The notes beneath the pieces are model-generated. The model did not search any database. It was not told the origin of the DNA and worked only from the letters and a program-made list of their open reading frames with translations. The position numbers and the translations under genes were made by a program. A stretch of 20,714 nucleotides of DNA from a virus. The stretch lies in IMG/VR virus record IMGVR_UViG_3300033571_003803, positions 1 to 20,714 of that record; one strand, 5' to 3'. Within the stretch, counting starts at the first letter, position 1. Each line of letters begins with the position of its first letter. Below are positions 1-12,739 of the stretch, piece after piece.

Positions 1-20
1 AGTGTTGTGTATGTTCGCAT
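1..20 (-). CDS. 5' end of a small early gene (partial)
   Basis: Only the first six codons (MRTYTT) fall in the window; the gene continues past the left edge. The start is supported by a GGAG-type ribosome site (complement of about 27-34) and by a sigma70 promoter at 53-81, the same upstream architecture as the other minus-strand genes. Nothing can be said about function. Confidence 0.5.
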
Positions 21-52
21 AGTTTTCGCTCCTAGTGCTTGTTTAAAAGTTT

Positions 53-81
53 ATTATAACATCAATCTACGTAGTAGTCAA
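53..81 (-). promoter_or_regulatory. Sigma70 promoter for the gene starting at 20
   Basis: On the minus strand TTGACT (76-81), 17 bp, TATAAT (53-58). The -35 lies inside the last codons of the upstream gene (62-220), so that gene end and this promoter overlap. Confidence 0.75.
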
Positions 82-220
82 CCGCTTGCTCTAGCTGCCC
101 CACGTATCCCATCACTTCGCTAAACACAAGGTCCACCTCTGCTAGCTGTCTGCCATCACATGTAGCCTCTGCCAGCATGTCGCCTATCTCTGCCAGCTTT
201 GCAAGTATCTCGTCTCTCAT
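62..220 (-). CDS. Small acidic hypothetical protein, 52 aa
   Basis: ATG at 220 is preceded by a strong AAGGAG ribosome site (complement of 228-233) and a promoter at 241-269; the stop is TGA at 62-64. The product (MRDEILAKLAEIGDM...) is acidic and mostly predicted helical, with no cysteine pairs or membrane segment. I do not recognise the family. It belongs to the run of individually promoted minus-strand early genes. The strong ribosome site and promoter make it a convincing gene despite its length. Confidence 0.7.
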   Translation of the reverse strand: MRDEILAKLAEIGDMLAEATCDGRQLAEVDLVFSEVMGYVGQLEQAVDYYVD

Positions 221-240
221 TGTGTGCTCCTTAAAAACTT

Positions 241-269
241 ATTATAACACACAAAGGGCTACAGCGCAA
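241..269 (-). promoter_or_regulatory. Sigma70 promoter for the 62-220 gene
   Basis: TATAAT at 241-246 and a weaker -35, TTGCGC, at 264-269 (17-bp spacing). The -35 lies in the loop of the inverted repeat at 250-285. Confidence 0.65.
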
Positions 270-285
270 GCAATAACCCTTTGTG
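250..285 (-). terminator. Hairpin after the 294-554 gene, enclosing a -35 box
   Basis: CACAAAGGG (250-258) pairs perfectly with CCCTTTGTG (277-285). A second pair, CTACAG (259-264) with CTGTAG (286-291), is interlocked, so two mutually exclusive folds are possible. There is no long U-tract, so termination efficiency is uncertain. The loop holds the -35 of the next promoter. Confidence 0.5.
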
Positions 286-293
286 CTGTAGGG

Positions 294-554
294 TTATACA
301 AATTCTATGTTGTCTGTACGCAGTTGTTTTTTAGCTTGTTGTAGTACATAAGCAGTATCTGCTTGTAGTGTTTCGTATGCTAAATCTCCGCTTACATAAT
401 TACATTTTGCTTGCGTAGGGAACAAATGTACTACTTCTCCATTATCTTTTACTTTTTGATGTACATTAAAAGCAATAACAATTTTGTAAGTGTCCTTGTT
501 TTTTACATACAGAAGTTTTGCTTTTGCTGTGTTTGCGCTATACACTTTAGACAT
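294..554 (-). CDS. Hypothetical early protein, 86 aa
   Basis: Soluble, lysine-rich protein beginning MSKVYSANTAKAKLLYVKN, with alternating hydrophobic residues suggesting a beta-rich N-terminal half and a helical C-terminus (about residues 60-80). It has a single cysteine and no recognisable motif. An AAAAGGAA ribosome site precedes ATG 554, and a 17-bp-spaced promoter at 583-611 drives it. It is a single-gene transcription unit between two hairpins. Family not recognised. Confidence 0.8.
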   Translation of the reverse strand: MSKVYSANTAKAKLLYVKNKDTYKIVIAFNVHQKVKDNGEVVHLFPTQAKCNYVSGDLAYETLQADTAYVLQQAKKQLRTDNIEFV

Positions 555-582
555 GCTGTTCCTTTTTGCTGTTTAAGTGTTT

Positions 583-611
583 ATTATAGCGCCTTTTGGC
601 TCGGCCGTCAA
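583..611 (-). promoter_or_regulatory. Sigma70 promoter for the 294-554 gene
   Basis: TTGACG (606-611), 17 bp, TATAAT (583-588) on the minus strand. It begins 1 bp past the terminator hairpin of the preceding gene. Confidence 0.8.
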
Positions 612-612
612 C

Positions 613-641
613 CAAAGACCCTGAGGCGAACAGGGTCTTTG
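613..641 (-). terminator. Hairpin terminator after the 648-1019 gene
   Basis: Perfect 11-bp inverted repeat CAAAGACCCTG (613-623) and CAGGGTCTTTG (631-641) with a 7-nt loop, starting 6 bp beyond the stop codon. The transcript side after the stem reads GGTTGACG, not a U-tract, so it may terminate weakly or protect the mRNA 3' end. Confidence 0.65.
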
Positions 642-647
642 TCTAGG

Positions 648-1019
648 TTACACCATCTCTCTGTCCACCATGTCGCTCAGCTCTGCGAACTTTTGCTTGT
701 ACTTGTAGACTTGACTCTTGGCTTCGTGTAGTGCTTCGCCGATACAGTCTTCGGCAGTGCCGTCTTTCAGTACTTCACGAGCGTCCTCATAGAGACAGCC
801 GCCCAAATAGTGCGAACCCATCTCAAGCTCTTCAACCATTACACGTACACGCAGCATGAACCAATCCAAGTCGCAGCGATCAACCTTGCGCTCCATGTCT
901 GCGATATCGTAGCAACTGTCATCAAAACAGTCACGCAGGGCAATGTCTTCCCAAGTCTTGTCCACGATGATAGTAAAGCCATCACGCTCGTATGTAGCCA
1001 GGTGGTAGTAATCTCGCAT
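648..1019 (-). CDS. Conserved phage hypothetical protein, 123 aa
   Basis: Acidic, cysteine-containing, mostly helical protein (MRDYYHLATYERDGF...). From memory it resembles a conserved small protein of tailed phages containing stretches like DCFDDS and LGGCLYED, but I know of no assigned function. GGAGCG ribosome site upstream of ATG 1019 and promoter at 1049-1077. It ends 6 bp before a perfect hairpin, so it is a monocistronic early unit. Coding status is confident; role unknown. Confidence 0.85.
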   Translation of the reverse strand: MRDYYHLATYERDGFTIIVDKTWEDIALRDCFDDSCYDIADMERKVDRCDLDWFMLRVRVMVEELEMGSHYLGGCLYEDAREVLKDGTAEDCIGEALHEAKSQVYKYKQKFAELSDMVDREMV

Positions 1020-1048
1020 TGTCGCTCCTTGTTACTGTTTAAGCCTTA

Positions 1049-1077
1049 ATTATAGCACCAAATAAAGACCCTGTCAA
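1049..1077 (-). promoter_or_regulatory. Consensus sigma70 promoter for the 648-1019 gene
   Basis: Perfect TTGACA (1072-1077), 17 bp, TATAAT (1049-1054) on the minus strand. The -35 sits at the edge of the loop of the hairpin at 1063-1091. Confidence 0.9.
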
Positions 1078-1091
1078 CCATAGGGTCTTTA
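1063..1091 (-). terminator. Hairpin after the 1089-1367 gene, nested with stop codon and -35
   Basis: TAAAGACCCT (1063-1072) pairs with AGGGTCTTTA (1082-1091), 9-nt loop. The stop codon TAA of the upstream gene (1089-1091) forms the base of the stem, and the next gene's -35 lies at the stem/loop edge. The transcript leaves the stem as UUUAUUU, a modest U-tract. Confidence 0.75.
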
Positions 1092-1367
1092 CATAGACCA
1101 GTAGAGTTCGCTAGATGGATCGCAACTACGGGGAGTGTCGTGTGCGATCTCCACTGCCGCGCCCGTCATCAAGTTCTTGACCCACTTGGTCGTGGGCACA
1201 TACTCAATGCGGAACTGGTTAAGAGGGTACAAGTATGCCAGCTCCCGCACTTCGCGATCCATTGTGGCTTCGTCCCTGTCCCGCCACACTGTAGTTGAGA
1301 ACAAGCGCTCGCCAGTCTTAGTACGACGGTCTGCCTTGTAGATGTACATGGTGTAGTCTTGCTTCAT
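1089..1367 (-). CDS. Conserved phage hypothetical protein, 92 aa
   Basis: Basic N-terminus (MKQDYTMYIYKADRRTKTGE) followed by a DRDEATMDREVREL helix and a C-terminal segment DTPRSCDPSSELYWSM. I recall similar C-termini in small tailed-phage proteins of unknown function. ATG 1367 overlaps the TGA of the upstream gene (1364-1648), so both are made from the promoter at 1681-1709. The stop codon is the base of a terminator stem. Confidence 0.85.
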   Translation of the reverse strand: MKQDYTMYIYKADRRTKTGERLFSTTVWRDRDEATMDREVRELAYLYPLNQFRIEYVPTTKWVKNLMTGAAVEIAHDTPRSCDPSSELYWSM

Positions 1368-1648
1368 ACAGTTGCTCCTTGTCGAAATGCTTGCTGAACG
1401 CGGGCCACTGCCAAGTTGCTCTTGCCACCGATGTGCCAGTGGTACATGCCTGTTGGAGTGCTATACTCTTTCCAGTCATAGATTGTGGCCACAGTGCCGT
1501 CTTCAAACTGTAAGCACCATTCGGCAGTTGTCTTGTCGCCGCTGTCTGTGGGCTCTCCAAACACTTCGACTAATTGGTCGAATCGTGCGGACAAGTAACC
1601 CTGCAGACTAGTACCATTAGCATCTGCGTCTGTTTTGAACTTTAGCAT
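1364..1648 (-). CDS. Conserved phage hypothetical protein, 94 aa
   Basis: The product has an N-terminal helix containing TSLQGYLSARFDQLVEVFG and a beta-rich core with EWCLQFEDGTVATIYDWK and YHWHIGGKS. This pattern recurs in phage hypothetical proteins that I recall, without known function. First gene of a two-gene unit with 1089-1367 (4-nt ATGA overlap). Promoter at 1681-1709; AGGAGCG ribosome site before ATG 1648. Confidence 0.85.
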   Translation of the reverse strand: MLKFKTDADANGTSLQGYLSARFDQLVEVFGEPTDSGDKTTAEWCLQFEDGTVATIYDWKEYSTPTGMYHWHIGGKSNLAVARVQQAFRQGATV

Positions 1649-1680
1649 AGTTTCGCTCCTATTGCGTTGTTGAAGTGTTT

Positions 1681-1709
1681 ATTATAACAGGTTTTTGTCA
1701 GCTTGTCAA
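1681..1709 (-). promoter_or_regulatory. Consensus sigma70 promoter for the 1364-1648 / 1089-1367 pair
   Basis: Perfect TTGACA (1704-1709), 17 bp, TATAAT (1681-1686) on the minus strand. The -35 overlaps the 3' end of the small gene 1698-1829. AAGACCC remains next to it but lacks an inverted partner. Confidence 0.9.
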
Positions 1710-1829
1710 GACCCTGCGGAGTGTCCAGCGAGCATCTATTCTGCTGGCGAACCAGCGGCTCAATGCCCTACTGTCGTCCTGTAAGAGTCCGGGCTCAGCA
1801 CCTGTCTTCCCGCCTCTAAGCATAGTCAT
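1698..1829 (-). CDS. Very small basic hypothetical protein, 43 aa
   Basis: Reads MTMLRGGKTGAEPGLLQDDS and ends in an arginine-rich helix (RWFASRIDARWTLRRVLTS). A GAGGAG ribosome site lies directly upstream, overlapping the stop codon of 1839-2072, which argues for translational coupling. Its last codons contain the -35 box of the next promoter. No family recognised; a second in-frame ATG lies two codons downstream. Moderate confidence because of its length. Confidence 0.5.
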   Translation of the reverse strand: MTMLRGGKTGAEPGLLQDDSRALSRWFASRIDARWTLRRVLTS

Positions 1830-1838
1830 ATCAGCTCC

Positions 1839-2072
1839 TCAATAGTGATGGCGTGAGCCTGGGTCGTTGAAGTCTGCGTTATCGGGAGTCCATTCCTCTT
1901 CGTCAGCTTCTTCGTCTTCGTCGTAGTCCTCGCCAATCAGCAAGTCGTTAGCAAGACACATGTCTTTGACGTCGTCTTCGCTCATGTAGGCCAAAGCCAT
2001 CTCTGCCACAGCTTCTGCTGAGATAAGACCTTCGTCCATCATGGCAATCAGTTTGCTAGTATATTCACGCAT
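1839..2072 (-). CDS. Acidic conserved phage hypothetical protein, 77 aa
   Basis: N-terminal helical part (MREYTSKLIAMMDEGLISAE...) with a stretch AYMSEDDVKDMCLANDL that I recall from other small phage proteins, then a very acidic tail (EDYDEDEEADEEEW). Such acidity can indicate nucleic-acid mimicry or a protein-protein decoy, but that is speculation. AAGGAGCG ribosome site, promoter at 2106-2134. Probably cotranscribed with 1698-1829. Confidence 0.85.
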   Translation of the reverse strand: MREYTSKLIAMMDEGLISAEAVAEMALAYMSEDDVKDMCLANDLLIGEDYDEDEEADEEEWTPDNADFNDPGSRHHY

Positions 2073-2105
2073 AAGTTTCGCTCCTTGTTTGTTACTGTAG
2101 CCTTA

Positions 2106-2134
2106 ATTATAGCAGGAATCAATGTCCCTGTCAA
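2106..2134 (-). promoter_or_regulatory. Consensus sigma70 promoter for the 1839-2072 gene
   Basis: Perfect TTGACA (2129-2134), 17 bp, TATAAT (2106-2111) on the minus strand. A reduced 4-bp version of the AGGG/CCCT hairpin flanks the -35, and the stop TAA of the upstream gene (2143-2145) abuts it. Confidence 0.9.
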
Positions 2135-2142
2135 CCAAAGGG

Positions 2143-2502
2143 TTATTCAACCCCAAAGCTCACATTGACCTCAATGTCTGTTACATCACCAGCCAGGTCG
2201 TACTTAATGCCCGTCACAGCCGCGCCGTAGTTAACAATGGCAAGCCGCTGTCTCAGCATACTTTCGAAATCGCTTACCATGTCGCCGATGAGGTCTTCAG
2301 TGCTTTCTTTAACGCCACGCAGGGTAGCATTAATGCCGTCACGCGACAAGTCCTCTTGCCCGTCCATGATCATTTCCAAAAAGCCCTCAGTCTGATTAAT
2401 CAGTGCTGCCTCTACCACAGCGTTAATCAGTTCCCGCTTAGACCACAGCACTTCGTGGGCTTTAAACAGTTGTTCGTTTGCTTTGTTAACTACCACAGTC
2501 AT
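2143..2502 (-). CDS. Hypothetical early protein, 119 aa
   Basis: The start at 2502 (MTVVVNKANEQLFKAHEVLW) has an AAGGAG ribosome site and a promoter at 2528-2556. A longer reading frame extends upstream but would run through that promoter and the neighbouring gene. The first 100 residues are mainly helical with alternating acidic and hydrophobic residues. The C-terminus (GIKYDLAGDVTDIEVNVSFG) is beta-like. No known motif; family not recognised. Confidence 0.8.
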   Translation of the reverse strand: MTVVVNKANEQLFKAHEVLWSKRELINAVVEAALINQTEGFLEMIMDGQEDLSRDGINATLRGVKESTEDLIGDMVSDFESMLRQRLAIVNYGAAVTGIKYDLAGDVTDIEVNVSFGVE

Positions 2503-2527
2503 ATCAGCTCCTTGTTGCGATGTCACT

Positions 2528-2556
2528 ATTATAGCACAATGTAAAGACCCTGTCAA
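2528..2556 (-). promoter_or_regulatory. Consensus sigma70 promoter for the 2143-2502 gene
   Basis: Perfect TTGACA (2551-2556), 17 bp, TATAAT (2528-2533) on the minus strand, with the -35 wholly inside the loop of the hairpin at 2540-2572. Confidence 0.9.
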
Positions 2557-2572
2557 CCAAAAGGTCTTTACA
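2540..2572 (-). terminator. Hairpin after the GIY-YIG gene, nested with stop codon and -35
   Basis: TGTAAAGACC (2540-2549) pairs with GGTCTTTACA (2563-2572), 10 bp. The stop TAA of 2568-2897 (2568-2570) is within the stem, and the 13-nt loop holds the TTGACA of the next promoter. Confidence 0.75.
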
Positions 2573-2897
2573 TGTACTGGTCGTTGAGCTCGGGCTCTAT
2601 CATTTTGACAAGCTCGCGCTCGTAGGCATAAGCCTCTTTGCGGCCACGTATAACGTCTATGACAGTGTGCGTCCAAGTCATGTCAAGTCCGCCTGTCTTT
2701 AAGTATACATAGAGAGCCCACATGCGATTCTCGTTGCGAGCACGGCTCTTGTGCTTGCGCCAGCGCTCTAGCACTGCCTTGTTGACAGTTAGAGAACCCT
2801 TGCGTGTCAAGCCCACGTATGAGTCCCCACGCTCACTGGTCATAGCGTAGATAACATAGTTGCTGTCGCTTCGTGCTGTTCGTTTTGTCTTTGTCAT
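2568..2897 (-). CDS. GIY-YIG-type small nuclease-like protein, 109 aa
   Basis: After a basic N-terminus the protein reads YVIYAM (about residues 14-19) and SYVGLT (about 26-31), the paired strands of a GIY-YIG domain. These are followed by basic residues in RWRKHKSRAR and a conserved glutamate in AYAYERELVKMIEP near the C-terminus, with N at the usual LN position. GIY-YIG domains cut DNA; phage copies act as homing or repair-type nucleases. There is no separate DNA-binding domain. The -10 ends 6 nt before ATG 2897, so the message is probably leaderless. A second GIY-YIG-like gene is at 14908. Confidence 0.75.
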   Translation of the reverse strand: MTKTKRTARSDSNYVIYAMTSERGDSYVGLTRKGSLTVNKAVLERWRKHKSRARNENRMWALYVYLKTGGLDMTWTHTVIDVIRGRKEAYAYERELVKMIEPELNDQYM

Positions 2898-2903
2898 GAG
2901 TGT

Positions 2904-2932
2904 ATTATAACGTCTTTTGAAAGACCCGTCAA
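2904..2932 (-). promoter_or_regulatory. Sigma70 promoter for the GIY-YIG gene, leaderless
   Basis: TTGACG (2927-2932), 17 bp, TATAAT (2904-2909) on the minus strand. Only 6 nt separate the -10 from the ATG, so transcription should begin at or next to the start codon. Confidence 0.85.
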
Positions 2933-2946
2933 GTCATAAGGTCTTT
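2920..2946 (-). terminator. Short hairpin enclosing a -35 box
   Basis: AAAGACC (2920-2926) pairs with GGTCTTT (2940-2946); the 13-nt loop starts with the -35 TTGACG. It is the same module as at 1063 and 2540, downstream of a stronger hairpin at 2958-2979. Confidence 0.5.
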
Positions 2947-2957
2947 GGCCGCACTCG

Positions 2958-2979
2958 ACTGTGGCTTTTCTGCCACAGT
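2958..2979 (-). terminator. Hairpin terminator after the 2986-3141 gene
   Basis: ACTGTGGC (2958-2965) and GCCACAGT (2972-2979) form a perfect 8-bp stem with a 6-nt loop, beginning 6 bp past the stop codon. No U-tract follows. Confidence 0.5.
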
Positions 2980-2985
2980 GTGTTG

Positions 2986-3141
2986 TTAACTTGCTACATA
3001 GTCTTCGGGCACTTCTTCGTCAATAGCGCAACACAAAGCATTAAAAGCGTCTTGTATTTTAGCGTTTTCTTCAAAGTCAGTGTCCACTAACATTTGCAGT
3101 TGATATAGCAATGTAAAAATGTGTTGTTTATCGTTTGACAT
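2986..3141 (-). CDS. Small acidic hypothetical protein, 51 aa
   Basis: Reads MSNDKQHIFTLLYQLQMLVD then an acidic helical half with a CC pair and the end EEVPEDYVAS. AAGGGAG (complement of 3147-3153) precedes ATG 3141 and a promoter lies at 3162-3190, so this is a complete early unit. The stop codon is followed by a perfect hairpin. Family not recognised. Confidence 0.7.
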   Translation of the reverse strand: MSNDKQHIFTLLYQLQMLVDTDFEENAKIQDAFNALCCAIDEEVPEDYVAS

Positions 3142-3161
3142 TTTAGCTCCCTTAAAAGCAT

Positions 3162-3190
3162 ATTATACTGCATTTTGGTGAAGTCGTCAA
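3162..3190 (-). promoter_or_regulatory. Sigma70 promoter for the 2986-3141 gene
   Basis: TTGACG (3185-3190), 17 bp, TATAAT (3162-3167) on the minus strand. AAAGACCC follows the -35 (about 3193) but has no perfect inverted partner. It is the rightmost of the nine minus-strand early promoters. Confidence 0.8.
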
Positions 3191-3230: not shown

Positions 3231-3259
3231 TTGACAAACTGCTCAAAAGGCGTTATAAT
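3231..3259 (+). promoter_or_regulatory. Perfect sigma70 promoter reading into the DnaA-box cluster
   Basis: TTGACA (3231-3236), 17 bp, TATAAT (3254-3259) on the plus strand, diverging from the minus-strand early genes. The predicted start point is about 3266, the first base of the palindrome ATGTTCGAACAT. The RNA would cross all the DnaA-box-like motifs, as expected of an origin-activating or primer transcript, or it could encode the 22-residue peptide at 3266. Confidence 0.85.
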
Positions 3260-3265
3260 TAACTC

Positions 3266-3277
3266 ATGTTCGAACAT
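3266..3277. promoter_or_regulatory. 12-bp perfect palindrome at the +1 of the 3231 promoter
   Basis: ATGTTCGAACAT is a perfect palindrome placed at +1 to +12 relative to the predicted start, a classical operator position. The core GTTCGAAC resembles dimeric repressor sites. The cognate repressor is unknown; the winged-helix-like protein at 13417 is one phage-encoded candidate. Confidence 0.5.
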
Positions 3278-3334
3278 AGTGGGGGTGGACGGCAAGGCTG
3301 GGCGCCGTTTGATCTGTGGACAAGCTGTGGATAA
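3266..3334 (+). CDS. Possible leaderless 22-residue peptide
   Basis: ATG 3266 lies 6 nt after the -10 of a perfect promoter, the same geometry as three longer genes here. It reads MFEHSGGGRQGWAPFDLWTS then CG, and its TAA stop is part of a DnaA-box-like 9-mer (3326-3334). No family recognised. It may be a real peptide or simply the 5' end of an untranslated origin transcript. Confidence 0.3.
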   Translation: MFEHSGGGRQGWAPFDLWTSCG

Positions 3335-3455
3335 CTTTTGAGTTTTGGTGCTGAAAAATCAGGCAGGACTTATCCACAGGTTGCTCACAGCTTGTCCACA
3401 TGTGAATAACTTTTGAATAAGCTGTGGACAACTATTATCCACAGAGTTATCCACA
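3315..3455. other. DnaA-box cluster, candidate replication origin
   Basis: Within 141 bp there are four TTATCCACA boxes (complement at 3326-3334; direct at 3370-3378, 3435-3443 and 3447-3455) and one TTATTCACA (complement, 3401-3409). Three TTGTCCACA near-boxes lie at 3315-3323 (complement), 3392-3400 (direct) and 3423-3431 (complement). TTATNCACA is the bacterial DnaA consensus. The cluster lies where gene polarity flips and beside phased repeats, all typical of an origin. Origin function is an inference. Confidence 0.75.
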
Positions 3456-3459
3456 TAGA

Positions 3460-3672
3460 TTACTCTGAATCCTCTACGAATCCCCAGCGCCATTTGGGAA
3501 GCGCCTCGAGAACATAATGACTGCCCGCGTCCCAATCCCCGGCCTCAAATACTTGATAATCACATTGGCGTTGATCGTACTTGAAACAGTGTATATGGCC
3601 CCTCTCTAGTTCCCTTGATAAGAATACCTGATGAGTGCTGTAAGTCAAGTGAGCAAGGCTTTCGAATTTCAT
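3460..3672 (-). CDS. Hypothetical protein inside the origin region, 70 aa
   Basis: Reads MKFESLAHLTYSTHQVFLSR and later FEAGDWDAGSHYVLEALPKW, ending WRWGFVEDSE; tryptophan-rich, acidic C-terminus, two cysteines. The start overlaps the first TATAGTG repeat: the complement is CACTATATG, with the ATG in it. I saw no clear sigma70 promoter or strong ribosome site. The stop lies 5 bp from the last DnaA box. Its place between two repeat arrays suggests a replication-linked role, but nothing in the sequence shows one. Confidence 0.6.
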   Translation of the reverse strand: MKFESLAHLTYSTHQVFLSRELERGHIHCFKYDQRQCDYQVFEAGDWDAGSHYVLEALPKWRWGFVEDSE

Positions 3673-3850
3673 ATAGTGTGTTCCATGAGTTGAAAGTGTA
3701 TAGTGTATATATCACAGTGTGCGTGAGTATTCTATATAGTGTGAAAGATCTATATAGTGACCACAGTGTGAATAGTCTATATAGTGATTCACTGTGTGCG
3801 GCGGTTGACTACTGTATAAGGCAGTTGAACACAGCGGACACCGTGCTCTA

Positions 3851-3897
3851 GAGTGAATTATGGTGAATTATAGTTGTCTATAGTGAATTATAGTGTA
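3851..3897 (+). repeat. Short GTGAATTAT repeats
   Basis: GTGAATTA followed by T occurs at 3853, 3863 and 3883, that is at 10-bp and 20-bp offsets, on one face of the helix. The third copy joins two TATAGTG motifs. Confidence 0.6.
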
Positions 3898-3950
3898 TCT
3901 AGAATAAGGTCACCTTGCGTATAGAGTCAACGAGTGCGGTCGATCAGACT

Positions 3951-3990
3951 AAAAAGTGTTGAAAAGTGTGATAAAGTGTGAAATTGTGTG
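3951..3990 (+). repeat. Four tandem 10-bp phased units
   Basis: AAAAAGTGTT, GAAAAGTGTG, ATAAAGTGTG and AAATTGTGTG follow one another without gaps. The exact 10-bp period with A-tracts suggests helically phased protein sites or intrinsic bending, as in origin iterons. Confidence 0.65.
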
Positions 3991-4110
3991 AGTGATTCTA
4001 GAATATGCGTCAGAATCAAGAATCAGGATACCGTGGCATAGCGTTGAAGATTTTGGTCAAGGGTGGGGCAGAGAGGCATAGTTCAAATACTCTCACAGTG
4101 CCACTACGCT

Positions 4111-4433
4111 ACTTGCTCGCAGCGGGGTCTCTTCCCGTATATAGTGTGTCTACCCTAGACCGCGCAGCGGGGTCTCTGTGCGTATAGTGTAGTTTTAGTC
4201 AAAACCTCACAGCGGGGTCTTTTCTATATAGTGTATATTGTGCTTGACTGTGTGCTAGGGTGCTCAAAAACGCTTTTTCACGCTGGCTGCTTCGCAGCCT
4301 CAGTGTGTTCAAGCGTGTACTCCGTGTATCTTCACACTATACGGATCACTACTACGTGAGTTCTCTACACTATATGAATTGCTACTATATAGATTACTAC
4401 TGTGTACGTTTGAACTTGCTCGCAGCGGGGTCT
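4111..4433 (+). repeat. Four AGCGGGGTCT repeats, two within a 20-bp direct repeat
   Basis: AGCGGGGTCT is found at 4121, 4166, 4211 and 4424; the first three are exactly 45 bp apart. The first and last copies are embedded in identical 20-mers, ACTTGCTCGCAGCGGGGTCT (4111-4130 and 4414-4433). Copies two and three begin CGC or CAC instead. Copies one to three are each followed by a TATAGTG motif. Confidence 0.75.
4285..4299. other. Small GC-rich hairpin
   Basis: GGCTGC (4285-4290), loop TTC, GCAGCC (4294-4299). It follows a short T-run, so it could terminate leftward transcription, or act as a structural element of the origin region. Confidence 0.4.
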
Positions 4434-4452
4434 ATTTGTAAATACTATTACT

Positions 4453-6682: not shown

Positions 6683-7831
6683 ATGCTTTCAAAAAAAACT
6701 ATTTGCGCTTACCCTTGGCGATCAGCTGCCATACGACCCAACGGTGCCACCATACCCTGTTGTAGGTACCCTAACCTTTCCGATCCTGACACATTTGTAC
6801 ACAGTGCTGATCCACGTAACAGCGAACACTGGGTTAAACTAAGATCAGATATGTTGGCGGGACAGCCTGTAGAAGGATGTAACAGTTGTTATCGAGATGA
6901 AAATAGCGGGTTAACAAGTCTGCGCCAGCGTAGTCTTTCAAAGTTTGTTCCCATTAAAAATGAAATAGAGCCCTTGGAGCAATTAGAAGTTGCCTTGAGC
7001 AATTTATGTAATCTAGCCTGTGTTCATTGTAACAGTTACTTTTCCAGTAAATGGTACAGTGAAGATGTAATAGCAGGGAGAGCCGCCAAATCTGGCGTAA
7101 CTGAAAATGCCTTCAACTTTGATCATTGGGATTTATCTAACTTAACTGAGTTAAAAATCATTGGCGGTGAGCCGTTTATGGAACAAAAACGATTTATTGA
7201 CTTGTTAAAAAATCTAAATTTACCAAGCATTAAATTACACATCACTACCAACGGCACTGTATTACCTAATGAAGAACTAAAGACGTTAATCGAATCCTGT
7301 AAGACTGTTCATTTGTGCGTCAGCTTGGATGGATTGTACTCCACTAACGACTGGTATAGATGGCCAAGTAAATTCTCCCAAGTAGTTGATAATATGAAAT
7401 TATATGAATCTTGGTGGAGCAATTACAAAAACATTGTACCCATTGTTCACCATGTTGTCAATGCTGTAAACATTTTTGAACTTGAAGATTTTGTTAAATT
7501 TATGGCTAGAGATTTTCCCGTATGGAAAATGGAATGGGATTGGATTCGATGGCCTCATTGGCAGCAATTGTCAGTGTTGCCAACTTCTGTTAAAATGAAT
7601 TTAATTTCTAAATTTACAACATTAAACTCAGAATATGTAACTAATAACTTTATACCAAATCCTTATAAAGTATCAATTAACAGATTATTGGAACGCCCAA
7701 CTGATAATTGGTCAACACTAAAAGATCAAATAACAAAAATATCAGCAGAACGAAATTTGAATTTTTTAAAAATGGTGTCATCTTACGAACTAATATGGAA
7801 TCTAGACGTTGACAAGCCCACGCTTGTATAG
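6683..7831 (+). CDS. Radical SAM protein with N-terminal cysteine-rich region (twitch type), 382 aa
   Basis: The catalytic [4Fe-4S] motif CxxxCxxC is at C109, C113 and C116 (NLCNLACVHCNS), followed by GGEP at 161-164, a SAM-binding element. The N-terminus has C8, CC at 26-27 and CNSC at 66-69, like the auxiliary-cluster (SPASM/twitch) half of peptide-modifying radical SAM enzymes, here placed before the core. The substrate is unknown and no precursor peptide is obvious. The gene looks more AT-rich than its neighbours, has no clear ribosome site and sits between complete units, suggesting acquired cargo. The family is known from phages and marine bacteria; its function there is unresolved. Confidence 0.85.
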   Translation: MLSKKTICAYPWRSAAIRPNGATIPCCRYPNLSDPDTFVHSADPRNSEHWVKLRSDMLAGQPVEGCNSCYRDENSGLTSLRQRSLSKFVPIKNEIEPLEQLEVALSNLCNLACVHCNSYFSSKWYSEDVIAGRAAKSGVTENAFNFDHWDLSNLTELKIIGGEPFMEQKRFIDLLKNLNLPSIKLHITTNGTVLPNEELKTLIESCKTVHLCVSLDGLYSTNDWYRWPSKFSQVVDNMKLYESWWSNYKNIVPIVHHVVNAVNIFELEDFVKFMARDFPVWKMEWDWIRWPHWQQLSVLPTSVKMNLISKFTTLNSEYVTNNFIPNPYKVSINRLLERPTDNWSTLKDQITKISAERNLNFLKMVSSYELIWNLDVDKPTLV

Positions 7832-8446: not shown

Positions 8447-9214
8447 ATGCGTTATTTAATATTATTTTTAGCCCTCATCACCGGGTCTGTTCACGCAGAA
8501 CCCAGTGTTTTCGTTTTTAATCAAAGCAAACACACTGCCTTGGTTAATCAAAATACTGACCGAGTTAGGCCCATTGCCAGCATTACCAAGTTAATGACTG
8601 CTTTGGTAGCTGTGGAGTCTGGATTGAGTTTGGAAAGTAGAACACAGCTGATCAATCGATGGACTACTGTGTTGCCCAAACGTACCTACACTAGACTGGA
8701 ATTGCTAACAGCCATGTTAGTACGCAGTGATAACAGTGCCGCTGAAAGTCTAGCACATGATTATCCTGGAGGCAGAACAGCCTTCATTGCGGCCATGAAC
8801 ACTAGAGCCAGTCAATTGGGCATGACACATACTCGTTTTGAAGATGCTAGTGGGCTCAGTAATAATAATGTAAGTACTGCAAGGGATTTGGTTAACCTTC
8901 TTGAGCAGGTACACAGAGTTGACATTATTAAAGATATCAGCACTAGAACTCATAGCAGTGTCATAACGGAAAACAAAAAGCGAACCACAGAGATAGCCTT
9001 TAACAATACCAACAGGATTGTACTTACTGAATTCAAAAATATTCAAATCAGTAAGACTGGTTTGACTACTCCTGCAGGTTGGTGTGTCAGTATGGTGGTA
9101 GAAGAACTGGGCCAAACACACTACATTGTGGTTTTAGGCTATCAAACTAAACAGGCCAGGCTTGACAAAGTCAAATACATAATGTATAATCATATCATGG
9201 GTAAACTCTATTAA
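8447..9214 (+). CDS. D-alanyl-D-alanine carboxypeptidase/endopeptidase, S11 family, 255 aa
   Basis: Signal peptide MRYLILFLALITGSVHA with a likely cut after Ala17. All three penicillin-binding signatures are present in order: SxxK at 45-48 (SITK), SxN at 94-96 (SDN) and KTG at 203-205. About 255 aa matches the compact PBP7/PbpG-type enzymes without the C-terminal membrane anchor. It should act in the periplasm, trimming pentapeptides or cutting D,D-crosslinks, thereby loosening the wall at lysis or altering the wall of the infected cell. Preceded by a TAAATA box 4 nt from the ATG and by no clear ribosome site. The family call is confident; carboxy- versus endopeptidase is open. Confidence 0.92.
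   Translation: MRYLILFLALITGSVHAEPSVFVFNQSKHTALVNQNTDRVRPIASITKLMTALVAVESGLSLESRTQLINRWTTVLPKRTYTRLELLTAMLVRSDNSAAESLAHDYPGGRTAFIAAMNTRASQLGMTHTRFEDASGLSNNNVSTARDLVNLLEQVHRVDIIKDISTRTHSSVITENKKRTTEIAFNNTNRIVLTEFKNIQISKTGLTTPAGWCVSMVVEELGQTHYIVVLGYQTKQARLDKVKYIMYNHIMGKLY
9162..9190 (+). promoter_or_regulatory. Perfect sigma70 promoter for the 9223 gene and downstream array
   Basis: TTGACA (9162-9167), 17 bp, TATAAT (9185-9190), lying inside the 3' end of the S11 peptidase gene. The next promoter I see on this strand is at 12736, so this one may drive the whole small-gene array. Confidence 0.9.
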
Positions 9215-9222
9215 CATGAAGT

Positions 9223-9687
9223 ATGAAAAAAATCTATTACGAAAAAGTTGGACGCAGATATAAACCTGTTGCGGAATATGACAGCACCTACATGGATAGC
9301 TTTCCCAAAGGCAATCACCTTGTCATGTGCTATCCAGGCGGTACCAGTCGAAGATTTAACATTGAGCCAAACTATGCTGCCATGATTGCGGCTGGCCGTG
9401 TTGCTGAAGATGTAATCAGTAAGGCTGTGGTCAAGGCCAGTGAGATGCGCCCGCACAAAAAGCCTATCACTGAGAAACAACGCAAGGCTTGGGAAAACTT
9501 GGCCAAGGCCTTTGGTGACGAACGTTACTACGTTGAGATTCCCAGTGCTAGAGAAATTGCCGAGGAAGGTGTCAAGGCCATGATGGCGGAAGCTGAACAG
9601 CTACTAGAGAATCCAAGTGTGCGTAGAGCATTTGAACGTTTTCAATTAGTTTGTCAACTCACGCAGGATCACACGGTTGGCAGTTGA
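9223..9687 (+). CDS. Conserved phage hypothetical protein, 154 aa
   Basis: MKKIYYEKVGRRYKPVAEYD and FPKGNHLVMCYPGGTSRRFN, then a helical C-terminal half ending ENPSVRRAFERFQLVCQLT. I recall close look-alikes in aquatic T4-like phage genomes, unnamed. The tail (NPxVxxAFxxFQ) is shared with the products at 11333 and 12112 (PxxxxAxxxF...L), pointing to a common interaction helix. It overlaps the next gene by 11 nt. Confidence 0.85.
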   Translation: MKKIYYEKVGRRYKPVAEYDSTYMDSFPKGNHLVMCYPGGTSRRFNIEPNYAAMIAAGRVAEDVISKAVVKASEMRPHKKPITEKQRKAWENLAKAFGDERYYVEIPSAREIAEEGVKAMMAEAEQLLENPSVRRAFERFQLVCQLTQDHTVGS

Positions 9688-9898
9688 CATTGTTATTCTA
9701 AATAGAAAAGCAGACGATGTTATGAACATAGTGCGTTCATTAAGGGATCAAGGTTTGACACAGGGTGTTGACTTTGACTTTGCTTATAGGCAAGCAACCT
9801 TTGATCCTATCACTGGACATTCAGTTACGGATAGACATACTGTGTTTACCTTTTACACAGAAAAGTACGCCACATTATTTGCTTTAAAATGGTCATGA
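9677..9898 (+). CDS. First member of the LKW-tail family, 73 aa
   Basis: Start TTG 9677 is inferred: the product (DIVILNRKADDVMNIVRSLR...) needs its first strand, and no ATG lies before 9722. Strand-helix-strand order and the ending FTFYTEKYATLFALKWS look like a small ferredoxin-like fold. The terminal F-x-F-x5-A-x-x-F-x-LKWS motif is the family signature. The AAATGGTCATGA end supplies the ATG of the next gene. Function unknown. Confidence 0.75.
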   Translation: MAVDIVILNRKADDVMNIVRSLRDQGLTQGVDFDFAYRQATFDPITGHSVTDRHTVFTFYTEKYATLFALKWS

Positions 9899-10191
9899 CA
9901 ACACTAGAAAATCAAATGCTAGAACGGGCGTCATCAGAGATAGCCCGAGCAATAGATAAAGAATTATTAGATGACCTTATGATTGATGTATTAACTAAGG
10001 AAGGCTGGACAGTGACTACCATGAACCCGGCGTTTGAACCACCACTGACTCGGTTGAGTAATGGAGAGTGGTACAGTGAAACAGCAGAATGGATTCACAT
10101 CAATGCCAAGAGCGATTACAAATTGTTAAACGGCCAATGGGTGTTTAAAGATCCTAAAGATGCCATGTGGTTTACATTAAGGTGGAGTTAA
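9895..10191 (+). CDS. LKW-tail family protein, 98 aa
   Basis: Reads MTTLENQMLERASSEIARAI with a helical first half, a variable middle and the conserved ending WVFKDPKDAMWFTLRWS. An upstream in-frame ATG at 9889 would add two residues. It overlaps the previous stop (ATGA) and the next start (TAATG). Confidence 0.8.
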   Translation: MTTLENQMLERASSEIARAIDKELLDDLMIDVLTKEGWTVTTMNPAFEPPLTRLSNGEWYSETAEWIHINAKSDYKLLNGQWVFKDPKDAMWFTLRWS

Positions 10192-10511
10192 TGGAATACT
10201 TTTACAGCGGCGGAGGCAACAACCTTCCGGACTTTACCTATCGATTCTTAGTCAAGAAGATTACTGATGACATGTATGACTGGTGCGGTAACTATCCGTT
10301 AGACGGACCTTTTGAACGCTGGCACATTATACACAACTACTATGAAAGCTCCGCCTTGAGAGTCGATAGAGGAGACAGCCCTGAAACTCCGCTTATTCAG
10401 TTTGAAAGTCGCAAGGCAGCTTACATGTTTCGCATTGCCTTTAGTGAATACATTATAGAAAACAAAACATACAGCTTTGCCAAACAGCATCTTGAAGAAG
10501 GATTTAAATGA
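10191..10511 (+). CDS. Divergent member of the small-protein array, 106 aa
   Basis: MEYFYSGGGNNLPDFTYRFL, a central WHIIHNYYESSALRV region and then FESRKAAYMFRIAFSEYIIE. The last stretch aligns with the family tail but has IAF instead of LKW and continues about 26 residues. Its start shares one base with the upstream TAA. The next gene overlaps its stop by 4 nt and uses GAAGGA (inside this gene) as ribosome site. Confidence 0.75.
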   Translation: MEYFYSGGGNNLPDFTYRFLVKKITDDMYDWCGNYPLDGPFERWHIIHNYYESSALRVDRGDSPETPLIQFESRKAAYMFRIAFSEYIIENKTYSFAKQHLEEGFK

Positions 10512-10762
10512 AAACACGATTGAGAAAACTTGTAAGACAACACAACTGGCAAGTAGTCGAAGTGTCACGGACTAACTTGTATAACCTCTTTGAAAGCAAT
10601 GGCGGCGAATGGGGCGAAATGGCACAGTACAAAGAAGTGCGAGCTTGGTGTGCTAAAACATTTCCCAAAGGATCTTGGGAAGCCAGTTTAGGCAAGTACG
10701 GCAAGAAGTTTGTGTTCAAAGAAGACAAACATGCAATGCTATTCAAACTCAAATGGTCATGA
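10508..10762 (+). CDS. LKW-tail family protein, 84 aa
   Basis: Basic N-terminus MKTRLRKLVRQHNWQVVEVS, then VRAWCAKTFPKGSWEASLGK and the ending KFVFKEDKHAMLFKLKWS. The central element (xxWCxxxFxxGxW) recurs in the products at 10759, 11100 and 11725. So the shared module is about 50 residues: helix with WC, a glycine-tryptophan turn, strand, and a DA/RD-x-x-F-x-LKW helix. Confidence 0.85.
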   Translation: MKTRLRKLVRQHNWQVVEVSRTNLYNLFESNGGEWGEMAQYKEVRAWCAKTFPKGSWEASLGKYGKKFVFKEDKHAMLFKLKWS

Positions 10763-11109
10763 CCAATCACGAGCAAGAAGCATTTGAAGCTATGGTAAAT
10801 CAATACACAAACAAAGGCCGTAACGCCTACCAACGGCTTATAGACGACATACAACAACGTCCTGTTGAAGCATTAATCTGCTCCGAAGGCACAGTCTATG
10901 GCAGTAGATACTATACAGTACAGCCCGAAGGCGGCAACTGGTTAGACATGGAAGTATGGTGCTTGGATACGTTTGGTGAAACTGGTAGTATATGGAGTGA
11001 GACTAAGAATCTAACACCCGAGCCACTAAAGCGATGGTACATGAACAATCGTAAGTTTTGGTTTAAAGAACAAAAAGATCGTGATTGGTTTATACTAAAA
11101 TGGAACTAG
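10759..11109 (+). CDS. LKW-tail family protein, longest copy, 116 aa
   Basis: MTNHEQEAFEAMVNQYTNKG begins an extra N-terminal helical region of about 50 residues. Then come the shared module MEVWCLDTFGETGSIW and the tail KFWFKEQKDRDWFILKWN. ATG 10753, in frame, is an alternative start; reading further upstream would lie inside the previous gene. The last codons AAATGGAACTAG contain the next gene's ATG. Confidence 0.85.
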   Translation: MTNHEQEAFEAMVNQYTNKGRNAYQRLIDDIQQRPVEALICSEGTVYGSRYYTVQPEGGNWLDMEVWCLDTFGETGSIWSETKNLTPEPLKRWYMNNRKFWFKEQKDRDWFILKWN

Positions 11110-11333
11110 TGAACAACAATCGAATAACGTTTAATAATACACGATATCATCTTAACGGCATTATGGAACAGTGGTGTCGTGACACTATAGGTGAAGGCAA
11201 ATGGATAGGCGAGCCCTGCCCTAAAGACTGGACAGGCTTGCCCGACTGGACAATACACAGTATGTTTGGCAATACCACATTTGCTTTTAAACACGCAAGA
11301 CATTATACTTGGTTTATACTAAGGTGGAACTAA
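11100..11333 (+). CDS. LKW-tail family protein, 77 aa
   Basis: Starts at the ATG embedded in the K-W codons of the upstream gene (10-nt overlap). MELVNNNRITFNNTRYHLNG, shared module MEQWCRDTIGEGKWIG, tail TFAFKHARHYTWFILRWN. No separate ribosome site is seen, so translation is presumably coupled. Short N-terminal part compared with 10759. Confidence 0.8.
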   Translation: MELVNNNRITFNNTRYHLNGIMEQWCRDTIGEGKWIGEPCPKDWTGLPDWTIHSMFGNTTFAFKHARHYTWFILRWN

Positions 11334-11728
11334 TGGCCTACAACTACAAAGATTATCTACAACATCCGTATTTTTTGAAAGACGAGCATAACAGTGAAGA
11401 ATACTTTCAGAACAAGTTTGAATGCCGTATCGAAGACAGTAAAGAATATCGTCATTATGTAAGACAAATGCCTTACTATAAATGGGACGGCCGAGAACCA
11501 TACAACATAGAAACTCAAGTAGTGCCTATGAAGTCCATACACTTAACCAGTGATAATCTAAAAAGATTAATAGCAGAGCAAGAACACATGAAGTACCTTC
11601 AAAAAGATGCTGAAGAAGGCAAACGAGTATGGCAGCGAGAACGTGAAGACAGCGTCGTTCGTAGTCGAAATCCCGCAGTGGAAAAAGCATACCGCAACTA
11701 TCAGATGTTATTGGAGTTAGCACGATGA
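11333..11728 (+). CDS. Hypothetical protein within the array, 131 aa
   Basis: MAYNYKDYLQHPYFLKDEHN, tyrosine-rich first half, then a long charged helix (AEQEHMKYLQKDAEEGKRVW) and the end NPAVEKAYRNYQMLLELAR. That end matches the tail of the 9223 product and, loosely, the 12112 product. It lacks the LKW tail, so it is an interspersed non-member. TAATG start junction and ATGA end junction. Confidence 0.8.
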   Translation: MAYNYKDYLQHPYFLKDEHNSEEYFQNKFECRIEDSKEYRHYVRQMPYYKWDGREPYNIETQVVPMKSIHLTSDNLKRLIAEQEHMKYLQKDAEEGKRVWQREREDSVVRSRNPAVEKAYRNYQMLLELAR

Positions 11729-11943
11729 AAATGAAAACATGTGAAGTGGGAATGTTTAGACTTCCTGGTATAGTTATTGAAGCAGATGAAGATGAGACTA
11801 TTTCCGAAGAGCGATTAAAAGAAATGGAAGATTGGTGTAACAGCGAGTTTGGTAAAGGTATGCGTATGACTGAGAGACTGTTTAGTTTTCGTAAAGCTAG
11901 TCAACGAGATTGGTTTATTCTACGGTGGAGTGGCGAGGAATGA
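11725..11943 (+). CDS. LKW-tail family protein, 72 aa
   Basis: MKMKTCEVGMFRLPGIVIEA, acidic centre, shared module MEDWCNSEFGKGMRM and tail LFSFRKASQRDWFILRWS followed by GEE. ATGA overlaps at both ends. The GEE extension provides a GAGGA ribosome site for the next gene. Confidence 0.85.
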   Translation: MKMKTCEVGMFRLPGIVIEADEDETISEERLKEMEDWCNSEFGKGMRMTERLFSFRKASQRDWFILRWSGEE

Positions 11944-12110
11944 AAGTTGTAGATTTGACAAATATTCGTACCTACGAAACTCGCAAAGCAATTGATTGGT
12001 TGTCTAAAACATTTGGACCTCCAGGCAGTCGTTGGAAACTCAAAGCATTGGCACAGGTAGAGTTTACCAAAGACAGAGACGCAACATTATTTTTATTACA
12101 TTGGGGATGA
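11940..12110 (+). CDS. LKW-tail family protein, shortest copy, 56 aa
   Basis: MKVVDLTNIRTYETRKAIDW then SKTFGPPGSRWKLKALAQ and the end VEFTKDRDATLFLLHWG. The WC of the module is WL here and the tail is LHWG. This minimal copy delimits the conserved unit. GAGGA precedes the ATG. Confidence 0.8.
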   Translation: MKVVDLTNIRTYETRKAIDWLSKTFGPPGSRWKLKALAQVEFTKDRDATLFLLHWG

Positions 12111-12111
12111 T

Positions 12112-12477
12112 ATGATTAAAGGAATAACACCTAGTCGGTATATTACAGTAAGTGGCGGCAGTCCAAGTAATCCCTACATCAGCCCAGGTGCAGTAGGTTC
12201 AGGCATGATGCGATACAATGGCAACATGAACTGTATCGAAATCAATGATGGTAACATGTGGAAACAACTAGAGTCGAGTTATGCCACGGTTGAACTAAAT
12301 GTAGAAGCTCAGGCTATCTTAGATTGGGCAAAAAGGAAAATGGCAGAGGAACAACAACTAGATGAGTTATGTAAAAAATACCCAGGACTCGGCAAAGCTA
12401 GAGGCAATTTCGAAACCTTCAAGAGATTGGTTGAGTCTACAGAAAACTTACCCGAATCAGTTCAATCTAGTCCATGA
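12112..12477 (+). CDS. Conserved phage protein with a virion-protein-like repeat motif, 121 aa
   Basis: MIKGITPSRYITVSGGSPSN leads into GMMRYNGNMNCIEINDGNMW (about 35-54). This xxRYNxxxxxIExxDGxxW motif is common in phage tail and fibre-associated proteins. It is followed by a helical region (EAQAILDWAKRKMAEEQQLD) and a tail with PGLGKARGNFETFKRLVE, like those at 9223 and 11333. I recall related unnamed phage proteins. GGGGA lies upstream of the ATG. Confidence 0.8.
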   Translation: MIKGITPSRYITVSGGSPSNPYISPGAVGSGMMRYNGNMNCIEINDGNMWKQLESSYATVELNVEAQAILDWAKRKMAEEQQLDELCKKYPGLGKARGNFETFKRLVESTENLPESVQSSP

Positions 12478-12484
12478 TAAAGTT

Positions 12485-12739
12485 GTGGAAGTTAAGACTG
12501 TAGTCGTACACCGTTTTAAGATGGGCGATGTCGACGACCCAGATCTCTATGCCGCACAACCTTTATACGAGTGGGAACAAAGCGAAATGGGGCAATGGGT
12601 CATGAGTCATGCCGTAGATCAACCCGAGTGGCGCCGCAATATGAACATCAGTCTTTACGGTTATGAGTACGTCATTGTTGCCAAACTGACTGCTAGAGAT
12701 TATACATTTTGGCAGCTAAAATGGGGCAACGGACATTGA
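12485..12739 (+). CDS. Array member with divergent LKW tail, 84 aa
   Basis: The start is uncertain. GTG 12485 gives V(M)EVKTVVVHRFKMGDVDD; ATG 12522 is the alternative. The reading frame is open further left but would overlap most of the upstream gene. YEWEQSEMGQWVMSHAVDQ and YGYEYVIVAKLTARDYTFWQ precede LKWGNGH, so it keeps the ending with a short extension. I recall this EW-x-QSE-x-G pattern from other phages. No ribosome site. Confidence 0.7.
   Translation: MEVKTVVVHRFKMGDVDDPDLYAAQPLYEWEQSEMGQWVMSHAVDQPEWRRNMNISLYGYEYVIVAKLTARDYTFWQLKWGNGH

Follow-up and report, generated by a model that had tools for sequence, protein, structure and literature searches.

Plasmid and P1 origins contain DnaA-box clusters as accessory elements, which in some cases depend on the host, and E. 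coli possesses further multi-box DnaA sites outside oriC, namely datA and DARS. To our knowledge, the start of replication in giant T4-like phages, and the use or manipulation of host DnaA by phages that have their own replisome, are little explored. The origins described for T4 require a promoter and form R-loops, the oriE promoter being of the early mode, and DnaA does not occur in the review of these origins (PMC3016281). DnaA boxes are listed among the features of the injection-stop signal of phage T5 (PMC13250531). In E. coli, DnaA binds in vivo to pairs of boxes that are 2 or 3 bp apart, and altered spacing disrupts this binding (PMC11317965).

The window analysed here is a complete IMG/VR record of 20,714 bases (IMGVR_UViG_3300033571_003803) and a fragment of an uncultured jumbo T4-like phage. 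Protein comparisons connect it with IMGVR_UViG_3300042868_005134 (383,411 bp; hereafter the 383-kb relative) and with smaller contigs, and BLAST pairs most of the window with 68.6-90.4 kb of the 383-kb relative, on the opposite strand and at ~75-92% identity. This relative has a T4-type replisome, as it codes for a T4-type DNA polymerase B, a DnaB-like helicase, a UvsW-like helicase and a gp46/SbcC-like nuclease, and it also encodes a tail sheath and a baseplate hub. It further carries DnaK, a ClpA/ClpB-like ATPase and a CHASE2-cyclase protein (L148, L161, L166), which is unusual cargo for a phage. A phage-encoded DnaA was not detected, the 383-kb record giving no Bac_DnaA_C match. No isolated phage matches the window at the DNA level, a plasmid search returned a single short match, and no published description of the locus was found in the open-access literature, to which the search was confined (subscription papers lay outside it). 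Assigning a host through the 24-nt leader described below or through the box pair was given up, because the GTDB genomes gave no match. A genome end at the locus was rejected as inconsistent with the contig ends, which fall on both sides of it; no end repeat was found in the 383-kb contig.

Architecture of the locus

Eight DnaA boxes in both orientations, five TTATNCACA and three TTGTCCACA, occupy 141 bp of the window (3315-3455), just as the sequence-only reading had reported when it counted five exact boxes and three near-boxes. On the minus strand these are 3315-3323 (TTGTCCACA, which reads TTATCCACA in the 383-kb relative), 3326-3334 (TTATCCACA), 3401-3409 (TTATTCACA) and 3423-3431 (TTGTCCACA). 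The plus-strand boxes are 3370-3378 (TTATCCACA), 3392-3400 (TTGTCCACA), 3435-3443 (TTATCCACA, which reads TTGTCCACA in the 383-kb relative) and 3447-3455 (TTATCCACA, 3 bp after the preceding box). Opposed boxes create a 26-nt inverted repeat (3315-3340 / 3375-3400) that would fold into a long hairpin if transcribed (z -4.5). The clustering far exceeds chance: dinucleotide-shuffled versions of the whole 20.7 kb contain 1.5 TTATNCACA on average, and the densest 141 bp in 1000 Markov-simulated windows held at most two TTATNCACA and at most one TTRTCCACA.

The sequence-only reading missed the larger locus to which the boxes belong, in which a sigma70 promoter is followed by an invariant 24-mer (GTTCGAACATAGTGGGGRTGGACG), the boxes and a convergent gene of ~70 aa. 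The promoter (3231-3259, plus strand) is TTGACA-17-TATAAT, matches the consensus at 12/12 positions and reads into the box cluster. The 24-mer lies at 3268-3291 on the same strand (GTTCGAACATAGTGGGGGTGGACG) and is the presumed transcript start, with a putative +1 at ~3266. A divergent early sigma70 promoter (TTGACG-17-TATAAT; 3162-3190, minus strand) serves the leftward array of small genes. In this array (1-3190), which we infer to be early from its sigma70 promoters, most small genes have a near-perfect sigma70 promoter of their own, and ~20 such promoters stand in the matching 11 kb in the 383-kb relative. The promoter at 3231-3259 is the first of the early array, and the layout is the same in other long relatives.

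The convergent gene (3460-3672, minus strand; 70 aa) has a homologue in the corresponding position of at least 15 distinct relatives; in the family it is ~60-86 codons long and faces the leader from the opposite side. Its product is predicted to fold into four strands and a helix (pLDDT 89), a fold for which no convincing known relative was found. A weak PUR-alpha-like match obtained with a single-sequence model faded with a better model (E 0.66) and was discarded. The presence of this gene also qualifies the earlier claim that the cluster lies exactly where coding polarity changes: minus-strand genes do end at ~3141 and plus-strand genes do start near 4.8-5.1 kb, but a minus-strand gene stands directly behind the boxes.

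Repeats had been claimed to adjoin the cluster, and a repeat-rich stretch does follow, with the ten TATAGTG copies of the window all located at 3672-4233 (plus strand). TATAGTG is enriched in the 383-kb relative and not in most others, and the motifs of the stretch behind the convergent gene are lineage-specific. The TATAGTG repeats were therefore rejected as general iterons. Four GCAGCGGGGTCT-type repeats, three of them spaced 45 bp, are present at 4111-4436, and similar CAGCGGGG repeats lie behind the locus in relatives L176, L186 and L189. Further downstream, the window encodes a radical SAM protein (6683-7831); a similar CxxPW-like motif opens several of the proteins predicted near 222-236 kb in the 383-kb relative. 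The window also has a run of small ORFs (9677-12739), apparently tandem paralogues, many of which end in a common F.L(K/R)W(S/N/G) motif.

An invariant leader and an exchangeable box array

The leader could be traced through viral contigs by its sequence. A scan for AACATAGTGGGGGTGGACGGC found 13 contigs, and scans for TATAATN{6,11}GTTCGAACATAG and for ACATAGTGGGGRTGGACG found an identical set of 23 other viral contigs, a count that leaves out L181, L188 and L191, which were judged chance matches to the leader pattern. As the two patterns overlap only in ACATAG, each half of the 24-mer predicts the other half. The 24-mer (window 3268-3291; L168-L193) has one copy per contig and starts 7-9 nt behind TATAAT, where transcription is expected to begin. 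It was found neither in the GTDB species genomes nor in any isolated phage. Counting the window, there are 20 distinct loci, and all 20 keep the -35 TTGAC, the -10 TATAAT and their position; the promoter spacer and the sequence downstream of the 24-mer vary freely. The leader does not form a small ORF (MFEHSGGGR), since the reading frame is not preserved, and no known RNA family was detected: no Rfam match reached the gathering score, the only matches being sub-threshold ones to miRNA hairpins.

Boxes are less constant than the leader. Directly behind it, 12 of the 20 distinct loci have 2-8 boxes and the other eight have none, still keeping promoter and leader. The sequence-only reading is upheld in that a T4-like phage here carries a true cluster of DnaA boxes, which the closest relatives keep; conservation does not extend to the whole family. 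Because the boxes are facultative, this phage group cannot depend on them as an indispensable origin. Where they are present, they are nearly restricted to this place: the homologous 130 bp of the 383-kb relative (86,760-86,889) contain 7 of the 11 TTRTCCACA of that genome, a 149-kb relative has all six of its TTATCCACA inside 118 bp and a 108-kb relative has five of six in one cluster. A box-free relative of 356 kb has no box cluster anywhere in its genome.

Between the window and the 383-kb relative, the aligned boxes differ at 4 of 54 positions, all of them degenerate positions of the box, as against 39 of 101 positions outside; other pairwise alignments show the same trend, with in-box changes at degenerate positions only. 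Judged from these alignments, the boxes are under purifying selection. They are also gained and lost in place, as the boxes at 3370 and 3392 are missing from the 383-kb relative, which has one between, and box order varies among relatives. Counting gains and losses from a tree of box presence was dropped, since tree support was too weak.

Gaps between neighbouring boxes of the same orientation are mostly 2 bp (15 cases), 3 bp (5) or 13 bp (12), so that 20 of the 44 such neighbours family-wide have a gap of 2-3 bp. Over the first 140 nt from the leader, box starts keep an 11-bp phase (R 0.78). The agreement of this spacing with the preference of E. coli DnaA suggests that host DnaA would be the ligand and is the best evidence for it.

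Possible roles of the array

According to the sequence-only reading, the cluster could be a host DnaA-dependent origin or a decoy for host DnaA, and either role is possible. A minimum of cumulative GC skew had been proposed as a check on the origin, and in the 383-kb relative the detrended minimum does fall at 86,590, 0.2-0.3 kb from the cluster. However, the minimum follows gene direction, and GC skew therefore supports no origin. With an origin placed here, leading- and lagging-strand genes of this genome do not differ in GC3 skew (rank 112 among 192 candidate origins), and in the 356-kb relative and other relatives the minimum lies elsewhere. The idea that GC skew proves an origin was accordingly rejected. 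An unwinding element of strong AT-richness was not seen adjoining the boxes, the most AT-rich 60-bp windows being situated away from them.

The reading that we tentatively favour is that the array gives host DnaA an accessory site on a replication origin with an early promoter, of the T4 oriE/oriF type. A conserved phage promoter, as at T4-type promoter/R-loop origins, is present at the locus. In favour of this reading we count the concentration of the boxes in one cluster per genome, the selection on them, their spacing and phasing, the constancy of promoter and leader, the T4-type replisome and the failure to detect a phage DnaA. Host RNA polymerase would start at the 3231-3259 promoter and transcribe into the box array, giving an RNA with an invariant, G-rich 5' end; this RNA may persist as an R-loop and so open the DNA, as happens at T4 oriF/oriG. 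The closely spaced boxes would be bound by host DnaA, which would aid duplex opening or helicase recruitment, so that the array could favour initiation in hosts where such help counts. That host DnaA helps to start virus DNA replication there would be the most likely reason why the boxes are kept intact. We hold this reading somewhat short of probable, because the boxes are facultative, skew gives no support and no clear unwinding element was seen; we also count against it that a T4-type replisome has no need of DnaA. A more specific version, which we consider conceivable but rather doubtful, is a hybrid origin, gated by the exchangeable host-DnaA array, at which the invariant transcript from the early promoter opens or primes the DNA. 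A virus with its own replisome would then read the initiation state of its host, and similar arrays of Vibrio phages of the KVP40 group would have arisen separately.

Bound DnaA might act on transcription instead. Array-bound host DnaA could form a roadblock or insulator that halts RNA polymerase and ends the leader RNA, the convergent 70-aa gene transcript or both, possibly tied to the host cell cycle, and would so replace an intrinsic terminator. The array indeed sits within the presumed transcript, between two convergent units, and strong intrinsic terminators were found at 8 of 10 box-poor loci versus 1 of 10 box-rich loci (Fisher 0.005), but the scan for terminators is rough and the contrast drops to Fisher 0.10 once near clades are collapsed. 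Since, in addition, relative L174 has eight boxes plus a terminator, the KVP40-group arrays stand between co-directional genes and eight boxes exceed the number that a roadblock should need, we regard this role as unlikely. Still less likely is a decoy that titrates host DnaA, or drives its datA-like inactivation, and thereby shuts down host initiation or alters the DnaA regulon. A facultative, fast-turning array with a conserved box number would suit a phage that brings its own replisome, and arrays recur among unrelated lytic phages. A single array per genome, however, titrates little until the phage replicates, and a decoy needs neither constant placement behind one special promoter nor phasing to that promoter.

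Control of DNA entry as by the T5 injection-stop signal, in which the array would mark the edge of an early region that enters first, appears improbable. The T5 signal holds DnaA-like boxes, and the cluster likewise borders an array of small genes with individual sigma70 promoters. Against this, several contigs extend tens of kb past the early array, no sign of two-step entry or of fixed ends was seen, T4-like genomes are usually circularly permuted and many relatives have no boxes. It is more improbable still that selection acts on a small phage RNA with a hairpin incidentally built from box sequences, rather than on DnaA binding. The 5' end is invariant, several relatives have strong hairpins and box-free relatives also show hairpins or terminators, but in-box changes are confined to DnaA-degenerate positions and box order differs between relatives. 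Moreover, relative L185 has two direct boxes that are unable to pair, and the stretch tested in L174 does not fold more than expected (z +0.9). The accessory origin site thus remains our preferred, if tentative, reading. If its hybrid form were true, a virus with its own replisome would sense host initiation state through an exchangeable DnaA array; the finding in any case supplies a precise conserved locus with a strictly invariant 24-nt transcript start.

Comparison with known systems

A host DnaA-dependent origin or decoy had been considered unusual for T4-like phages, a claim that needs qualification, since the giant T4-like Vibrio phages VS1, ValKK3, phi-ST2 and nt-1 have 4-7 boxes in ~70-110 bp at one conserved intergenic place. 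Their close relatives KVP40, PG216, phi-pp2 and VH1_2019 have no boxes at that place, so the module is facultative in the KVP40 group, as it is in the jumbo phages. The KVP40-group array differs in that it occupies another locus, has all boxes in one orientation, is flanked by co-directional genes and is not accompanied by the invariant 24-mer. With cultivable phages that have the array (nt-1, ValKK3) or lack it (KVP40), ordinary experiments can distinguish between an origin, a roadblock and a decoy. Arrays of TTATCCACA are also present in noncoding regions of Berlinviruses, a Klebsiella phage and Lactococcus phage AM4 (L226, L227, L228, L230), and at least 120 viral contigs share a 21-mer in which two boxes stand in tandem.

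The annotated T5 injection-stop signal (9140-10149) contains one exact and three one-mismatch boxes, arranged as two 12-bp-spaced pairs. It resembles the jumbo-phage locus as noncoding, repeat-rich sequence that borders a pre-early region and has DnaA-like boxes at 12-bp spacing; DnaA-like boxes also border the small-gene array here, which is presumably early, to judge by its sigma70 promoters. It differs in sitting in a terminal repeat and in having one exact box, and no homology was sought or seen beyond the boxes. The KVP40-group and T5 arrays are independent of the jumbo-phage array.

T4 oriE, oriF and oriG share with the locus a phage promoter at the origin and the T4-type replisome, but oriF and oriG combine middle promoters with an AT-rich unwinding element, the latter not seen here. 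Bacterial oriC and the DnaA-dependent plasmid and P1 origins have clustered TTATCCACA at DnaA-preferred spacing as well, whereas the jumbo-phage locus is facultative and comes without a detected dnaA gene or a clear unwinding element. E. coli datA and DARS are likewise multi-box DnaA sites, from which the jumbo-phage array is set apart by being phage-borne and by its position beside an early promoter.
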